Assembly: GCA_030523555.1 (NCBI GenBank)
Contig: JAUNIH010000004.1
Location: 1-52,272 of the forward strand
Direction: 5' to 3'
Length of the DNA stretch: 52,272 nt
Source of the DNA: Erysipelotrichaceae bacterium
GTDB lineage: Bacteria; Bacillota_I; Bacilli_A; Erysipelotrichales; Erysipelotrichaceae
The position numbers and the translations under genes were made by a program. The notes beneath the pieces were generated by a model. The model was not told the origin of the DNA and did not search any database. It saw nothing but the letters and a program-made list of their open reading frames with translations. Positions within the stretch are counted from its first letter, which is position 1. Each line of letters opens with the position of its first letter. Shown here one piece after another: positions 29,802 to 40,554 of the stretch.

Positions 29802-30301
29802 TTCAGTATAAAATCTTCTCCTTTAAGAAATTCTCTGTCACTAAGATTCCCAAATCCAACCTGTCTTAAACATTCATAGGCACCTATGGCTACACAGTTG
29901 CTGAGATTAAGACTTCTCGCATCTTTACGCATAGGCAATCTGTAGCACTTATCAAGATTATCCTTTAAAATCTGTTTCTCAATTCCTGTACTTTCTTTAC
30001 CAAAGACAAGATAGATATCTTTTTCTTTATCAAAGACACATTCATCAAATGATTTAAGGGCATATCTTGTGAAATAGACAAACTGCCCTTCTACACTATT
30101 ATAGAAAGATTTCCAGTCAGGATACACTGTGTAATCAAGATCTTTGATATAATCCATACCGCTTCTTTTAAGATGTTTCTCATCAAGAGAAAAACCTAAA
30201 GGCTCTATAAGATGAAGTTTCATTTCAAAAGCAGAACAGGTTCTCATGATATTACCGGTATTCTGAGGAATCTCTGGTTCATACAATACAACATTAATCA
30301 T
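29795..30301 (-). CDS. trmL: tRNA (cytidine/uridine-34 2'-O)-methyltransferase TrmL
   Basis: This 168-residue SPOUT methyltransferase methylates the ribose of the wobble base in certain tRNA-Leu species. The start MINVVLYEPEIPQNTGNIMR and the knot segments VFGKESTGI and LPMRKDARSLNLSNC are diagnostic. The frame extends to 30334, but the ATG at 30301 gives the conserved N-terminus and overlaps the upstream gene by 8 nt. Confidence 0.92.
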   Translation of the reverse strand: MINVVLYEPEIPQNTGNIMRTCSAFEMKLHLIEPLGFSLDEKHLKRSGMDYIKDLDYTVYPDWKSFYNSVEGQFVYFTRYALKSFDECVFDKEKDIYLVFGKESTGIEKQILKDNLDKCYRLPMRKDARSLNLSNCVAIGAYECLRQVGFGNLSDREFLKGEDFILKC

Positions 30302-30995
30302 CAGTTTTACTCTTCCTTTGATAAACCAATACAAAATACATCAGCGCAATGAGTATAAAGAAAGTAACGACAATCCTTATGACAAGATTATTAAAGAACT
30401 GTGGTGGAACGATCATTATCAGGATATCTTTTCTTAAATCAAGTATCCATAAGCCATTACCCGGAAAGAAAAGATGATGAAAACTGGTCCAGAAGGAATC
30501 AAAGTCAATAAGTATCCATAAACTTAATGTCCCAAAAAACAGGAGACAGCCAAGAAGTACTTTCCTGTATGAATCAAAGAGTCTGTATGAAGAAAAACCT
30601 TTAATCACAAAATAAACAATAATTGATACAAGAATAACTCCTGAAGCTATAAGTATATAATTGGCAGTCATATTGAGATTTCTTACATCTACCATATGCG
30701 CCTTTTCATCATCAGTAAATATTTCTCTTACACTTCCGTTGACATTCATCTGAATATCAAGGTCTCTTGATGGATCATTAAGATAAGCTAAAGTAAAATG
30801 AGTCAGTTCTTTAAGATCATCATTACTGATACCGATATATTCATTTATTGGTTTGTTTCCTAATGTAAGAGTATTGTGCTGGGCTTCATAGAATGATTCG
30901 TTATAGCACCAGAAATGAATGCTGCCAAGTAAAGCACAGATAATAAACAGTATAGAAAAAACCGTATATAAAAGATTAGAATTCTTTTCTGACAT
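30294..30995 (-). CDS. DUF1461/TIGR01906-type integral membrane protein
   Basis: This 233-residue membrane protein has an N-terminal helix, a long extracytoplasmic loop (FYEAQHNTLTLGNKPI onward), then about three to four helices. The family hallmark is FDSFWTSFHHLFFPGNGLW followed by IVPPQFF. The function of this family is unknown. The frame begins at a TTG (31001), and the ATG at 30995 is preferred. It overlaps rdgB by 20 nt, so expression is coupled to it. Confidence 0.8.
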   Translation of the reverse strand: MSEKNSNLLYTVFSILFIICALLGSIHFWCYNESFYEAQHNTLTLGNKPINEYIGISNDDLKELTHFTLAYLNDPSRDLDIQMNVNGSVREIFTDDEKAHMVDVRNLNMTANYILIASGVILVSIIVYFVIKGFSSYRLFDSYRKVLLGCLLFFGTLSLWILIDFDSFWTSFHHLFFPGNGLWILDLRKDILIMIVPPQFFNNLVIRIVVTFFILIALMYFVLVYQRKSKTDD

Positions 30996-31566
30996 CTTCA
31001 ATCCATTTCTTCATCGCAACAGCTCTATGCGAATATTCATTCTTATAAGTTTCGCCTAATTCTGCCTCAGTCATTCCATATTCTTCTATAAGAAATATCG
31101 GATCATAGCCAAAGCCGTCAGTACCCTTCTGAACATGCGAAATTAATCCAGGATTAATACCTTCATAATGATGTACATTTCCTGATTCATCGGCGTAACA
31201 GATATCTGCCACAAACTGCGCAGCTCTGTTATCAGTATTTTCCATCATTTTAAGAACAATATCATTCTTGGTCTTATAATCGATATCACCAAAAAATCTG
31301 GCAGAATAGATACCAGGCAAGCCATTGAAATAATCAATGCAGATACCTGAGTCATCAGCCAGGGTTGGTAAATGATAAAGATTGTAATAGAAAAGAGCTT
31401 TTATCTCAGAATTTTCTTTAAAGGTTTTACCGTTTTCACAAGGTTCTTCTTTACAGTCAAAATCCTTTGGACATACTAGTTCAAGATATATGCCATTCTG
31501 TTCGAGAATAGTATTTATTTCGGATATTTTATGGGCATTACTGGATGCGATAAATAATTTGTTCAT
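30976..31566 (-). CDS. rdgB: XTP/dITP diphosphatase RdgB
   Basis: This 196-residue HAM1/RdgB-family pyrophosphatase cleanses the nucleotide pool of dITP and XTP. Motifs are FIASSNAHK at the N-terminus, TLADDSGI with the catalytic Asp, GLPGIYSARF, GFGYDPIF and SHRAVAMKKW. A TTG lies two codons upstream, and the ATG at 31566 is chosen. It follows phoH within the same operon. Confidence 0.94.
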   Translation of the reverse strand: MNKLFIASSNAHKISEINTILEQNGIYLELVCPKDFDCKEEPCENGKTFKENSEIKALFYYNLYHLPTLADDSGICIDYFNGLPGIYSARFFGDIDYKTKNDIVLKMMENTDNRAAQFVADICYADESGNVHHYEGINPGLISHVQKGTDGFGYDPIFLIEEYGMTEAELGETYKNEYSHRAVAMKKWIEDVRKEF

Positions 31567-32517: not shown

Positions 32518-32548
32518 AAAAAAATAGTAAGGAAAAACCTTACTATTT
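32518..32548 (-). terminator. rpsU terminator
   Basis: An 11-bp stem AAATAGTAAGG (32522-32532) / CCTTACTATTT (32538-32548) has a 5-nt loop. In the minus direction it is followed by seven U. It overlaps the rpsU stop codon. Confidence 0.88.
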
Positions 32549-32722
32549 CATTCTTCTTAATTTTCTTGCGTTTTCACGTTTAAGTCTTTTCTTAACACCT
32601 GGCTTAACGTAATATTCTCTTTTCTTTGCTTCAAGAAGTGTTCCGTTACGGGAAACCTGTCTTTTAAAACGACGTAAAGCATCATCAAGCTGTTCGTTTT
32701 CTTTAACATATACTTTAGACAT
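32543..32722 (-). CDS. rpsU: 30S ribosomal protein S21
   Basis: This 59-residue basic protein was read directly from the sequence. It begins [20 protein letters not shown] and ends [15 protein letters not shown], the S21 pattern. A strong RBS, GGAGGTGA, lies 7 nt before the ATG. It has its own promoter (TTGAAA-17-TATAAT) and its own terminator, so it is monocistronic. S21 takes part in mRNA and anti-Shine-Dalgarno recognition on the 30S subunit. Confidence 0.96.
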
Positions 32723-32782: not shown

Positions 32783-34117
32783 TTATTCTATAGAAATAAT
32801 CATATTGTCGCTTACTGTTACTTTTAATACATCAAGTGGTTTGATAAATGGAAGTCTGTCAGATATTTCGATTGAACAGGTATAGATTTCATTTTCTATA
32901 GTCTGTATATAGTAAATGGTATATCCGTCTACAACAGCACTCTCAATATCATTTACGGTAATTTCTTTAATATCTGTAGCTTGAGATGTAACGATATTTT
33001 TTCCTGAGAAGTTTATAAGTGCTTCCTGGATAGATTTACCGGTACCTACTTTCTGATAGTTCTTATAGGATACAAAGGCATATTCCTTGATAAGACCGGC
33101 ATTGTCTTTTAAACCCATAAAGTATACTTCTTCGCCCTGAATATTGACCATAGTCGGGAATAATGCCTGATAGCCTTTTTCCTGTACAGCACCTTCCGCA
33201 GAAGCTCTGGCTGAATATTCTTCAGCACCTGCAGATTCGATGTAGATAACATCCTTGTTCTGAAGGTCAATATACATATAGCCGACATTTGATTCATCAC
33301 TTCCAACTGATGTAACACCTGTATAGATCCATAAATGTCCGTCCTTCTGAAGATAGGCATAATCATCGGTTGTTGAAGTTATACCTTTCTGGGCAAAGTT
33401 GAACAAGCCGTATCTGTACTGCGAATAGGAATTATACTGTTCACATACCATGCTTGGACCATAGACATTATCTACCCACGAAGGTATTTCACCTACAGGA
33501 TAGTAATTACTCTTACCATCAATCGGAGAAGTTATAATTACCCCTTCAACATCGACAGCCTTTGATATGAATGAATATTTAAGACATTTGGTAACCCAGT
33601 AAGGATTCCAGCTGTCATCTACTTCAAATTTAACTTCACCAAGTATCTTTGCCGGATACTGAAGTCTTACATGAAGATTGAGATTGGCAAGGAAATAGGC
33701 ATTATTGGTAAAGGTAAGACCTTCATCAACCTTATGGAAGACCGTTGTTCCATCGCTTACATCAACAGAAATAAAGCCTGGTGTACCATTGGATCTAGTA
33801 GACATCCATTTGATAAAACCGGAAAATTCAACAGGTGTAAGTCTGTACATGACATTATTCACCACACACTGGTTGTAGATATCAGGCATCTGATACTGGG
33901 ATACAATCTGGGCACCCATTTCACCGAATACCCGATCCGCCAGAGATTTTGAAACTTCCTTATCAATTACCTGAACCTGCTTATCAGAGAATTCTGACAT
34001 CTCTGATATAGTGCCGGCTTCAGGAACAACAATTCTGTTACGGTATGAATTAAGTCCTCCAAGATATGGCGTACCTATCAGTAAGGATATAAAGATTATC
34101 AGACCGCCAAATATCAT
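32783..34117 (-). CDS. Membrane-anchored extracytoplasmic protein, large fragment
   Basis: The function is not recognised. This 444-residue reading frame starts with one membrane helix (about 2-20). A large, Tyr- and Ser-rich extracytoplasmic domain of mixed alpha/beta character follows, with no lipobox. The ATG has no RBS and begins within the helix region. Nine codons upstream in the same frame is a TAA that ends the 59-residue ORF at 34142-34321, which has a good RBS. The two together look like one three-helix protein of about 512 codons broken by a stop. This part may be poorly translated unless it is re-initiated or the stop is read through. Confidence 0.6.
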   Translation of the reverse strand: MIFGGLIIFISLLIGTPYLGGLNSYRNRIVVPEAGTISEMSEFSDKQVQVIDKEVSKSLADRVFGEMGAQIVSQYQMPDIYNQCVVNNVMYRLTPVEFSGFIKWMSTRSNGTPGFISVDVSDGTTVFHKVDEGLTFTNNAYFLANLNLHVRLQYPAKILGEVKFEVDDSWNPYWVTKCLKYSFISKAVDVEGVIITSPIDGKSNYYPVGEIPSWVDNVYGPSMVCEQYNSYSQYRYGLFNFAQKGITSTTDDYAYLQKDGHLWIYTGVTSVGSDESNVGYMYIDLQNKDVIYIESAGAEEYSARASAEGAVQEKGYQALFPTMVNIQGEEVYFMGLKDNAGLIKEYAFVSYKNYQKVGTGKSIQEALINFSGKNIVTSQATDIKEITVNDIESAVVDGYTIYYIQTIENEIYTCSIEISDRLPFIKPLDVLKVTVSDNMIISIE

Positions 34118-34141
34118 AATAAATGTAAGGGTCTTGTTTCT

Positions 34142-34321
34142 TTAAGTGAACACCCCTTCCTTAAAGTCATAAGACAGTAAAAGAAAAGGAACTGCTGATA
34201 AGACAAAGAACAGCCAGAAGACAAACGAATGAATATTGATTGCGGGTTTCATGGTGAAGTATAAGAATGCTACCCATACAACACACAGAAAGTACAGTAT
34301 TTTTTTAAGTCCTTTCAACAT
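34142..34321 (-). CDS. Two-helix N-terminal fragment of the same membrane protein
   Basis: This 59-residue ORF begins MLKGLKKILYFLCVVWV. It has two hydrophobic helices (about 8-23 and 31-50) and ends KEGVFT before TAA at 34142-34144. The RBS AAAGGAG is strong, and a TATAAT lies at 34346-34351. It is in the same frame as the 444-residue ORF, with only TAA and eight sense codons between them. Either it is a genuine small membrane protein translated ahead of its partner, or it is the 5' part of a gene interrupted by a nonsense change. Confidence 0.6.
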   Translation of the reverse strand: MLKGLKKILYFLCVVWVAFLYFTMKPAINIHSFVFWLFFVLSAVPFLLLSYDFKEGVFT

Positions 34322-34423: not shown

Positions 34424-35071
34424 TTATTCACCTTTTTCGATGAGTTTTGTACCGGATGAAGTACCTATGCGGTTGGCGCCAAGTTCAATCATCTTCAGCA
34501 TATCCTCATGGCTTCTGACGCCGCCTGCAGCTTTAATAAGACATTTATCCTTAACCGCATTCTTGAGTATCATGACATCGCCAAACGTTGCGCCTGATGT
34601 AGAGAAACCGGTAGAAGTCTTGACAAAGTCCGCATGAGTCTTAAGGATACATTCACAGGCTTTCTTCTTTTCTTCATCAGTAAGCAGACATGTCTCGATA
34701 ATAACCTTTAAAGTCTTATCGCCTACCGCTTCCTTGATCTTTCTTATTTCTTCGGTAACATAATCGTAATCCTTGTCTTTAAGTCTACCGATATTGATTA
34801 CCATATCAACTTCATCAGCACCCTTTTTAACGGCATCTTCAGCTTCAAATACTTTAGCTTCAGTTGACATAGCACCTAAAGGAAAACCGATAACACAGCA
34901 CACCAGAACGTCTGATCCTTCAAGCTGCTTCTTGCAGAATTCAATATTGCAGGTATTTACACATACTGATTTGAAATCATAATCCTTCGCTTCATCACAT
35001 AACTTTTTAATAGTATCAAGTGATGCGTCAGCCTTAAGACATGTATGATCAATATATTTGCTCAGTTTCAT
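34424..35071 (-). CDS. deoC: Deoxyribose-phosphate aldolase
   Basis: This is a 215-residue class I aldolase. Conserved strands include YIDHTCLK, DEVDMVINIG, the Schiff-base segment VKTSTGF, and IKAAGGVRS. It splits 2-deoxyribose-5-phosphate into glyceraldehyde-3-phosphate and acetaldehyde. An ATG three codons upstream (35080) lies too close to the AAAGG RBS, so 35071 is preferred. It overlaps the MurE-like gene by 23 nt and ends the operon. Confidence 0.93.
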   Translation of the reverse strand: MKLSKYIDHTCLKADASLDTIKKLCDEAKDYDFKSVCVNTCNIEFCKKQLEGSDVLVCCVIGFPLGAMSTEAKVFEAEDAVKKGADEVDMVINIGRLKDKDYDYVTEEIRKIKEAVGDKTLKVIIETCLLTDEEKKKACECILKTHADFVKTSTGFSTSGATFGDVMILKNAVKDKCLIKAAGGVRSHEDMLKMIELGANRIGTSSGTKLIEKGE

Positions 35072-36497
35072 TTTCTTCATCCTTTCCTTCCTTAATATAT
35101 TTTATCGCATAGTAGGCATCGCCATAATATTTTTCCTTGCCAAGACCCATAGTCAGGAAAGTTTCATTTCCTTTGCCAAGTATCAGCAGTACATCTTCGC
35201 TGTTAAGTAAAGATATCGCATTATCAATAGCGGAAGAGCGGTAGAGACATTTAAGGAAACGGTTTTTTGTATTGAACTTATCCCATCTTGAAAGAATCTC
35301 TGATACTTCCCCTTCGTGTGATGCGTCTTCAGTAAGTATTACGACATCTGAATATTTATTCAGAATATCACTGATTCTGGACATACGCGATTCTTCATCA
35401 TAGAAATCCGTACCAAAGACCGTAATAACTCTGCCTTTTGTAATATTTCTGGCAAACTTTTCTATTTCTTCAACACTGCATTCATCATACGCACAGTCTA
35501 TATAGACATTGTATTCATCATCTACAGACTGATATATGCCTTCCACATCTTCAATATCATTAAGTGAAGAAATGATATCCTCCATTGAATAATTCATCTC
35601 GTGAAGACTCGCAATGGCGGCTGTCAGGTTATAGATATTGACATAGCCTTTAAGCGGACATGTTATATCATAGTAAAGATTATTGACATTGAGTCTGAAA
35701 CTGATATTTCGATTAGTGACTGTAGGATTGCTGATACAGTAATCCGCATCCTTATCTGTTCCGTATGTAATAAGATTTTCACCCGCATCCCTAAGTTCAT
35801 CATAGGAAGAATCATCACAGTTGATGATTATTTTTGTATAGTCTTCCAGTGTATAAAGATATCTTCTTATCCAGTTGTAGTATTCCTTTGATGAAGACTT
35901 GTATTCAAGGCTTCTTTCATCACATCCGGTAAAGACAAATACTTCCGGAGATACAACATCCAGCTTCTTAAGATATAAAGATGATCCGGTAGCTTCAAAT
36001 GTCGTAGCTCGGATACCTTCATTTCTCAGATTATAAAGAACCTTGATATTGTCAATCGCGGATAATGTCGGGAAATTCATCTTATAGTTTTTATCCTGAT
36101 ACTGAATACCTAAAATGCCGATATAGGCTGAAGGCATTTTCTTGTTGAGTATTGTATGAATGATCTTGGCTACTGAAGCTCTTCCGTATGTACCGGAAAC
36201 TATATAGGTATCTATATTCTTATTTGGATAATCATAGAAGATATTGGCAGCTCTTTTAAGTGCTTCAGAGACATTTTTTACTTTGATATAGACAGCTTTG
36301 GGTTTATCTTCAAGTTCTTCGGAATAGACAATTACCTTGGCTCCGTTTTTGACTGCTTCCTTGACAAAGCGATGTCCATTATCTTTGATACCTGACATAC
36401 AGAAAAAGACCGCATTCTTCATCGGTATTCTTGAATCAGCCGATATCTGTTCTATTTCAATATCCGGTGCCCCTTTAAACAGTGTACTTAACAGCAT
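35049..36497 (-). CDS. MurE-like Mur-ligase paralogue with degenerate active site
   Basis: This 482-residue protein has the three-domain Mur ligase layout. The N-terminal domain shows ISADSRIPMKNAVFFCMSG and the central domain keeps GYVNIYNLTAAIASL. The C-terminal domain follows. Key catalytic motifs differ from MurE. The P-loop reads SGTYGRAS (101-108) where TGTNGKTT is expected, so the ATP-binding Lys is Arg106. The DHxDYH-type segment reads DERSLEY. The YAHTP segment reads CAYDE. It probably cannot act as a normal ligase and may be a pseudoenzyme or a ligase of changed chemistry. It overlaps mtaB by 10 nt. Confidence 0.75.
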   Translation of the reverse strand: MLLSTLFKGAPDIEIEQISADSRIPMKNAVFFCMSGIKDNGHRFVKEAVKNGAKVIVYSEELEDKPKAVYIKVKNVSEALKRAANIFYDYPNKNIDTYIVSGTYGRASVAKIIHTILNKKMPSAYIGILGIQYQDKNYKMNFPTLSAIDNIKVLYNLRNEGIRATTFEATGSSLYLKKLDVVSPEVFVFTGCDERSLEYKSSSKEYYNWIRRYLYTLEDYTKIIINCDDSSYDELRDAGENLITYGTDKDADYCISNPTVTNRNISFRLNVNNLYYDITCPLKGYVNIYNLTAAIASLHEMNYSMEDIISSLNDIEDVEGIYQSVDDEYNVYIDCAYDECSVEEIEKFARNITKGRVITVFGTDFYDEESRMSRISDILNKYSDVVILTEDASHEGEVSEILSRWDKFNTKNRFLKCLYRSSAIDNAISLLNSEDVLLILGKGNETFLTMGLGKEKYYGDAYYAIKYIKEGKDEENETEQIY

Positions 36498-39826: not shown

Positions 39827-40554
39827 CTATTTCATTAAGGGAATGATATATTCTTCAATAAGATTCATATTATAGTTAACTACAAGTTCATCAGGGAAAC
39901 TGATTTCTTCCAGTAACTGTTCAGCCAGATCAAAACAGTTTATCTGATATTTGATATGGGCATCAGAACTCAGAATAATCGGAATATTATTCTTACGGCA
40001 TATATCAAGAATGATTCTATCTTTTTCTTTTGCCCCTGGTCTTGCGCTGTCAGGATGTAAAGATGCGTTGTTTAATTCTATTAATATATGCCTTTTATGA
40101 GCTTCTAGAATTACCTTTTCATAATCTATCGGATATGCAGGATTATCTATATGACCAAGTATCTTTACATATGGACATTCCATAGCCTTTAAAAAGGCGT
40201 TTGTATTGTCTTCACGTGTATGGGTTTTAGGTGAATAGGTAAAGGTATGCATGGAAGCGATGGCATAATCGAGTTTTTCAACAGGTATGTCAAAAAAATC
40301 AAAACCGTCTTCTAGTATATTTAGTTCAATACCGACCATTTATTTGTATTACCCATTTTCTTTGGAGTAATGCGTTTGCAGTTTCCAAAGGCATACTTAT
40401 GGGCACCTACACCGTACTGATCAGCCTGATGTTCGCTTATTCCGTAATAAAGAAGATTATTATCTGCAGCATACTCTATGTTTTCAGTCAAAGAGGAATA
40501 GGCATGTTTGGATAAAACGGAATGGGTATGCAGATCAACAAATGATTTTTTCAT
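39827..40554 (-). pseudogene. PHP-domain phosphohydrolase, frameshifted
   Basis: Two overlapping frames together make one YcdX-like PHP phosphoesterase of about 240 residues. The first part (from ATG 40554) holds the metal-binding VDLHTHSVLSKHAYS and ISEHQADQYG segments. It runs into a stop shortly after KRITPKKMGNT. The second part, from about 40339, continues with GIELNILEDG, ASMHTF, LGHIDNP, IELNNASL and SSDAH to the normal C-terminus. The frame offset equals the loss of one base near the AT-rich ACAAATAAATGG (around 40340). It may be a true pseudogene or a sequencing error. Confidence 0.8.

Follow-up and report, generated by a model that had tools for sequence, protein, structure and literature searches.

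A membrane-protein gene split by a single in-frame TAA in a Candidatus Colivicinus-group genome, probably through a recent nonsense mutation

Two ORFs on the (-) strand of the window, the 52,272-nucleotide stretch of DNA analysed here, together form one gene, parted by a single premature in-frame TAA. The gene encodes a membrane protein of three predicted helices and a large outer domain. The stop is probably a recent nonsense mutation, which would make the locus a young loss-of-function allele; the gene itself is probably dispensable.

Reading frame and genomic setting

The 5′ fragment (34145-34321, (-) strand) starts at ATG 34321, with a TATAAT-like box and the ribosome-binding site AAAGGAG ahead of it; according to sequence, alignment and model, its 59 codons encode the first two transmembrane helices of the ancestral protein. 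It ends at TAA 34142-34144 (-), placed by the same evidence at ancestral residue 60, in a cytoplasmic loop where helix 3 starts. Beyond the stop, the 3′ part of the ancestral frame (32783-34141, (-)) is open up to its normal terminator (TAA 32783-32785) and, on the basis of translation, homologue search and model, encodes helix 3 and the outer domain. Eight codons (RNKTLTFI) follow the stop before the first ATG, at 34117, which lies 25 bases past the stop in the same frame and opens a 444-codon ORF (32783-34117, (-)); inspection of the sequence before this ATG found no Shine-Dalgarno-like sequence. Read through, the two ORFs give a product of 512 residues. Sequence and translation thus bear out the first-pass annotation in its description of two ORFs in one frame, separated only by TAA and eight sense codons, the shorter with a strong ribosome-binding site and the longer without.

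The gene lies between a DeoC-family aldolase gene upstream (deoC, 34424-35080, (-), Pfam PF01791) and the gene of ribosomal protein S21 downstream (rpsU, 32543-32722, (-), Pfam PF01165). A Lit-family lipoprotein intramolecular transacylase (Pfam PF07314, E 7e-33) is encoded at 30294-31001 (-). Another interrupted gene was observed 6 kb away at 39827-40554 (-), with a frameshift near 40336-40363 that places its N-terminal 73 codons in a different frame from the C-terminal 170; it is intact in five same-genus relatives (237-260 codons). Its product is one that we take, from HTH..H motifs recognised by eye, to be of the PHP-phosphoesterase type, and a Pfam search with the separate fragments reached no family.

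The source assembly, a draft of 1.79 Mb in 95 contigs (95% complete) of which the window is contig 54, belongs to the Candidatus Colivicinus group of the Erysipelotrichales, with Candidatus Colivicinus equi as the nearest named relative. Candidatus Colivicinus is the former GTDB group UBA636 from mammalian guts (PMC8957277). The host species is represented by this one assembly, and the nearest homologues have about 62-65% identity in the outer part.

Homologues and the predicted protein

Compared with 61 relatives, the long ORF had single-frame homologues in 50 genomes (its own included), none with an internal stop; the frames of the relatives ran to between 513 and about 580 codons and encoded the helix hairpin upstream of the matched part. 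In alignments of the read-through product, the hairpin matched on the N-terminal side of the stop, and the match beyond it comprised helix 3 together with the outer domain. The two nearest relatives, both of the Candidatus Colivicinus group, carry single ORFs that align end to end over 511-512 residues at 59-61% identity with exactly one stop, and against the nearest named relative there were no indels. As these single proteins align across the stop, the two ORFs are not a chance juxtaposition. Among GTDB contigs, 79 of 80 loci were complete single ORFs of 512-595 aa, hairpin included, and the remaining one lay at a contig edge. The orthologue alignment proposed by the first-pass annotation has therefore returned uninterrupted single proteins (50 of 61 genomes; all 79 complete GTDB-contig homologues), and its central claim, a membrane protein gene split by a single in-frame TAA, is upheld by the end-to-end match. 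Across the order the family was present in 207 of 316 genomes, and among the near-full-length matches listed an internal stop was found only in the source genome.

Three other apparent splits were dismissed: the TAG reported in G097 is the normal terminator of that gene, the one in G233 is a matter of a contig edge, and in G242 two contigs disagree by one base. A run of N lies inside the homologous gene of G214. The single-contig genome G191 has three family matches, each with at least two internal stops, which suggests long-decayed copies in that species.

At the position of the stop, the two nearest relatives have leucine codons (CTT and TTA), and for this reason the CAA to TAA route offered earlier as an example is not supported. 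An alternative alignment of the local DNA with the relatives, offset by one base, is also possible, so that a substitution and paired indels are not distinguishable.

An AlphaFold2 model of the read-through protein, built on an alignment with 59 homologues, had a mean pLDDT of 91.1 and a pTM of 0.80. It agrees with the earlier description of the combined product, predicting three helices (residues 2-24, 33-50 and 60-82) together with a large outer domain in which strands and helices both occur. The stop takes the place of residue 60, in the variable loop that links helix 2 to helix 3; it is here that the model has helix 3 begin.

No curated Pfam or NCBIfam model had general support among 60 members of the family, and weak matches to EF-P, AraC and other profiles in scattered members were rejected as its identity. 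The PDB gave no match by sequence and nothing usable by structure: no TM-score over the query exceeded about 0.18, and the rmsd was near 20. A search of viral contigs for the junction pattern found no match. With the single protein as query, the GTDB contig search returned no confirmed relative; with the alignment as query, it matched at least 570 loci. Annotated homologues are named 'hypothetical protein', for example in Aerococcus tenax (CP127381.1) and, more distantly, on a Ligilactobacillus salivarius plasmid. In a comparison that covers the outer domain of the 444-residue query, both share that domain, the former over 88% of the query at 35% identity and the latter over 66% at about 22%. 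The family is conserved, uncharacterised and widespread in Bacilli and related gut bacteria, also beyond the order.

A DUF1836/MerR-type regulator ORF was located near the homologue in 16 of 21 same-genus loci, and a PspC-domain protein in four (one contig, present in two collections, accounts for two of these), neighbours that hint at an envelope role. In the source genome the gene lies between deoC and rpsU, unlike the regulator-associated loci of the genus, and the only trace of the regulator in the assembly was a weak homologue of the query fragment (33% over 46 residues). This displaced, partnerless position would fit, as circumstantial evidence, a gene on its way out. Four same-genus assemblies, 99% (G001), 95% (G027), 94% (G015) and 91% (G018) complete, had no match to the family; from this absence in near-complete relatives, the gene is best read as probably dispensable.

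Origin of the stop

Apart from the stop upstream of it, the 444-codon part is free of damage. Against two relatives dN was about 0.31 with dS saturated, amino-acid changes being far rarer than silent ones, and of 74 columns that at least 95% of the other sequences conserve, 63 are retained in the window and 66 in the nearest relative. An intact and conserved remainder implies that the stop would be young relative to the divergence from these relatives, or else not real. With silent sites saturated, the stop is not datable, and it is from the intact remainder only that we infer its recency.

A recent nonsense change, one of the causes suggested by the first-pass annotation, is the likeliest of them, given intact relatives, an intact remainder and a stop in one genome; the disturbed locus and the second interrupted gene of the window also count for it. 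With orthologues uninterrupted and the stop present only in the source genome among the near-full-length matches listed, the gene shares these two attributes with a nonsense-mutation pseudogene. A recent mutation would have created TAA in the helix 2-3 loop in the source genome; translation from ATG 34321 would then produce a two-helix stub of 59 residues and terminate, leaving the outer domain absent or made in traces only. We infer both that the base is real and that the full-length product is lost. Against this reading, an open downstream frame is equally expected of a functional split or of an assembly error. The latter was implied by the first-pass annotation only in its advice to resequence, and is treated here as an explicit rival: a base-call or assembly error, or a minor strain variant picked by the assembler, with the gene intact in the living population. 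We regard it as unlikely, yet of appreciable weight. The assembly is a draft in 95 contigs, the frame is otherwise perfectly kept, the frameshifted gene at 39827-40554 is near, and the one-base-offset alignment would allow paired indels instead of a substitution. G242 illustrates that these data do contain artefacts or strain variants of this kind: its contigs L198 (1-214) and L199 (382-596) overlap at 99%, yet disagree by a one-base indel where the same helix 2-3 loop has an A-run, leaving one copy of this family member intact and the other frameshifted. A single wrong consensus base is, however, uncommon in short-read assemblies, and the source genome holds one match only, so no overlapping contig contradicts the TAA.

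Two polypeptides could also arise if ribosomes re-initiated, or weakly initiated internally, at ATG 34117, a single-helix outer domain being made beside a small two-helix protein. The ATG is within re-initiation range of the stop, neither part is interrupted and the outer domain is conserved, but the ATG has no ribosome-binding site and lies inside helix 3 of the model, so that the product would lack the positive RNK flank and some eight residues. Under the positive-inside rule, losing positive residues before a helix weakens correct insertion, and a product begun there would accordingly be predicted to insert less correctly. None of the complete relatives examined has the same boundary. Neither a boundary shared by orthologues nor an initiation signal for the second ORF was thus found, and the earlier suggestion of re-initiation, which these observations do not support, is improbable. 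More doubtful still is a fixed stop that functionally separates the two parts in this species, stub and outer domain being made by re-initiation at ATG 34117 and reassembling; if true, this would be a gene fission specific to one lineage of an uncharacterised membrane family. Least credible is readthrough of the TAA to the full 512-residue protein, also proposed earlier. In its favour the remainder is conserved, and low dN versus dS near in-frame stops is the argument of Belinky and colleagues, in whose view readthrough may be common in bacteria, many such events being short-lived and sequencing errors being among their sources (PMC7918605). A very young stop would leave the same conservation, however, and the stop is not kept in relatives, as would be looked for in programmed readthrough. 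Nor was a decoding tRNA found, none of 35 tRNAs in the 95% complete assembly having a UAA-reading anticodon. TAA is the usual terminator in the window (a mechanical count, a few spurious ORFs included, gave 36 of 50 ORFs with 150 codons or more), and RNA folding around and after the stop was no better than in shuffles (z -0.96 and -0.68), leaving readthrough without a stimulatory structure.

Significance and comparison with known cases

The interruption is most likely ordinary gene inactivation, or otherwise a base error, with no new mechanism, and its mechanism carries little weight, since draft genomes often contain single premature stops. The lesson is that a proposal of recoding for a split ORF in an assembled genome should wait for a comparison with relatives. 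Of more use, as a by-product, is a family of uncharacterised membrane proteins that has neither a Pfam or NCBIfam model nor a convincing structural relative.

The stops under purifying selection that were interpreted as readthrough (PMC7918605) likewise are single and in frame, with conserved flanks and no other damage; unlike in those cases, the stop here is a TAA in one genome only, and its decoding partner was not found. Young bacterial pseudogenes with one nonsense mutation (reviewed, for example, in PMC11078800 and PMC2916853) also show a conserved frame whose only defect is a premature stop, orthologues that are intact, and relatives from which the gene is missing, and no difference from the present gene is evident. 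Nothing sets this case apart from a young pseudogene.
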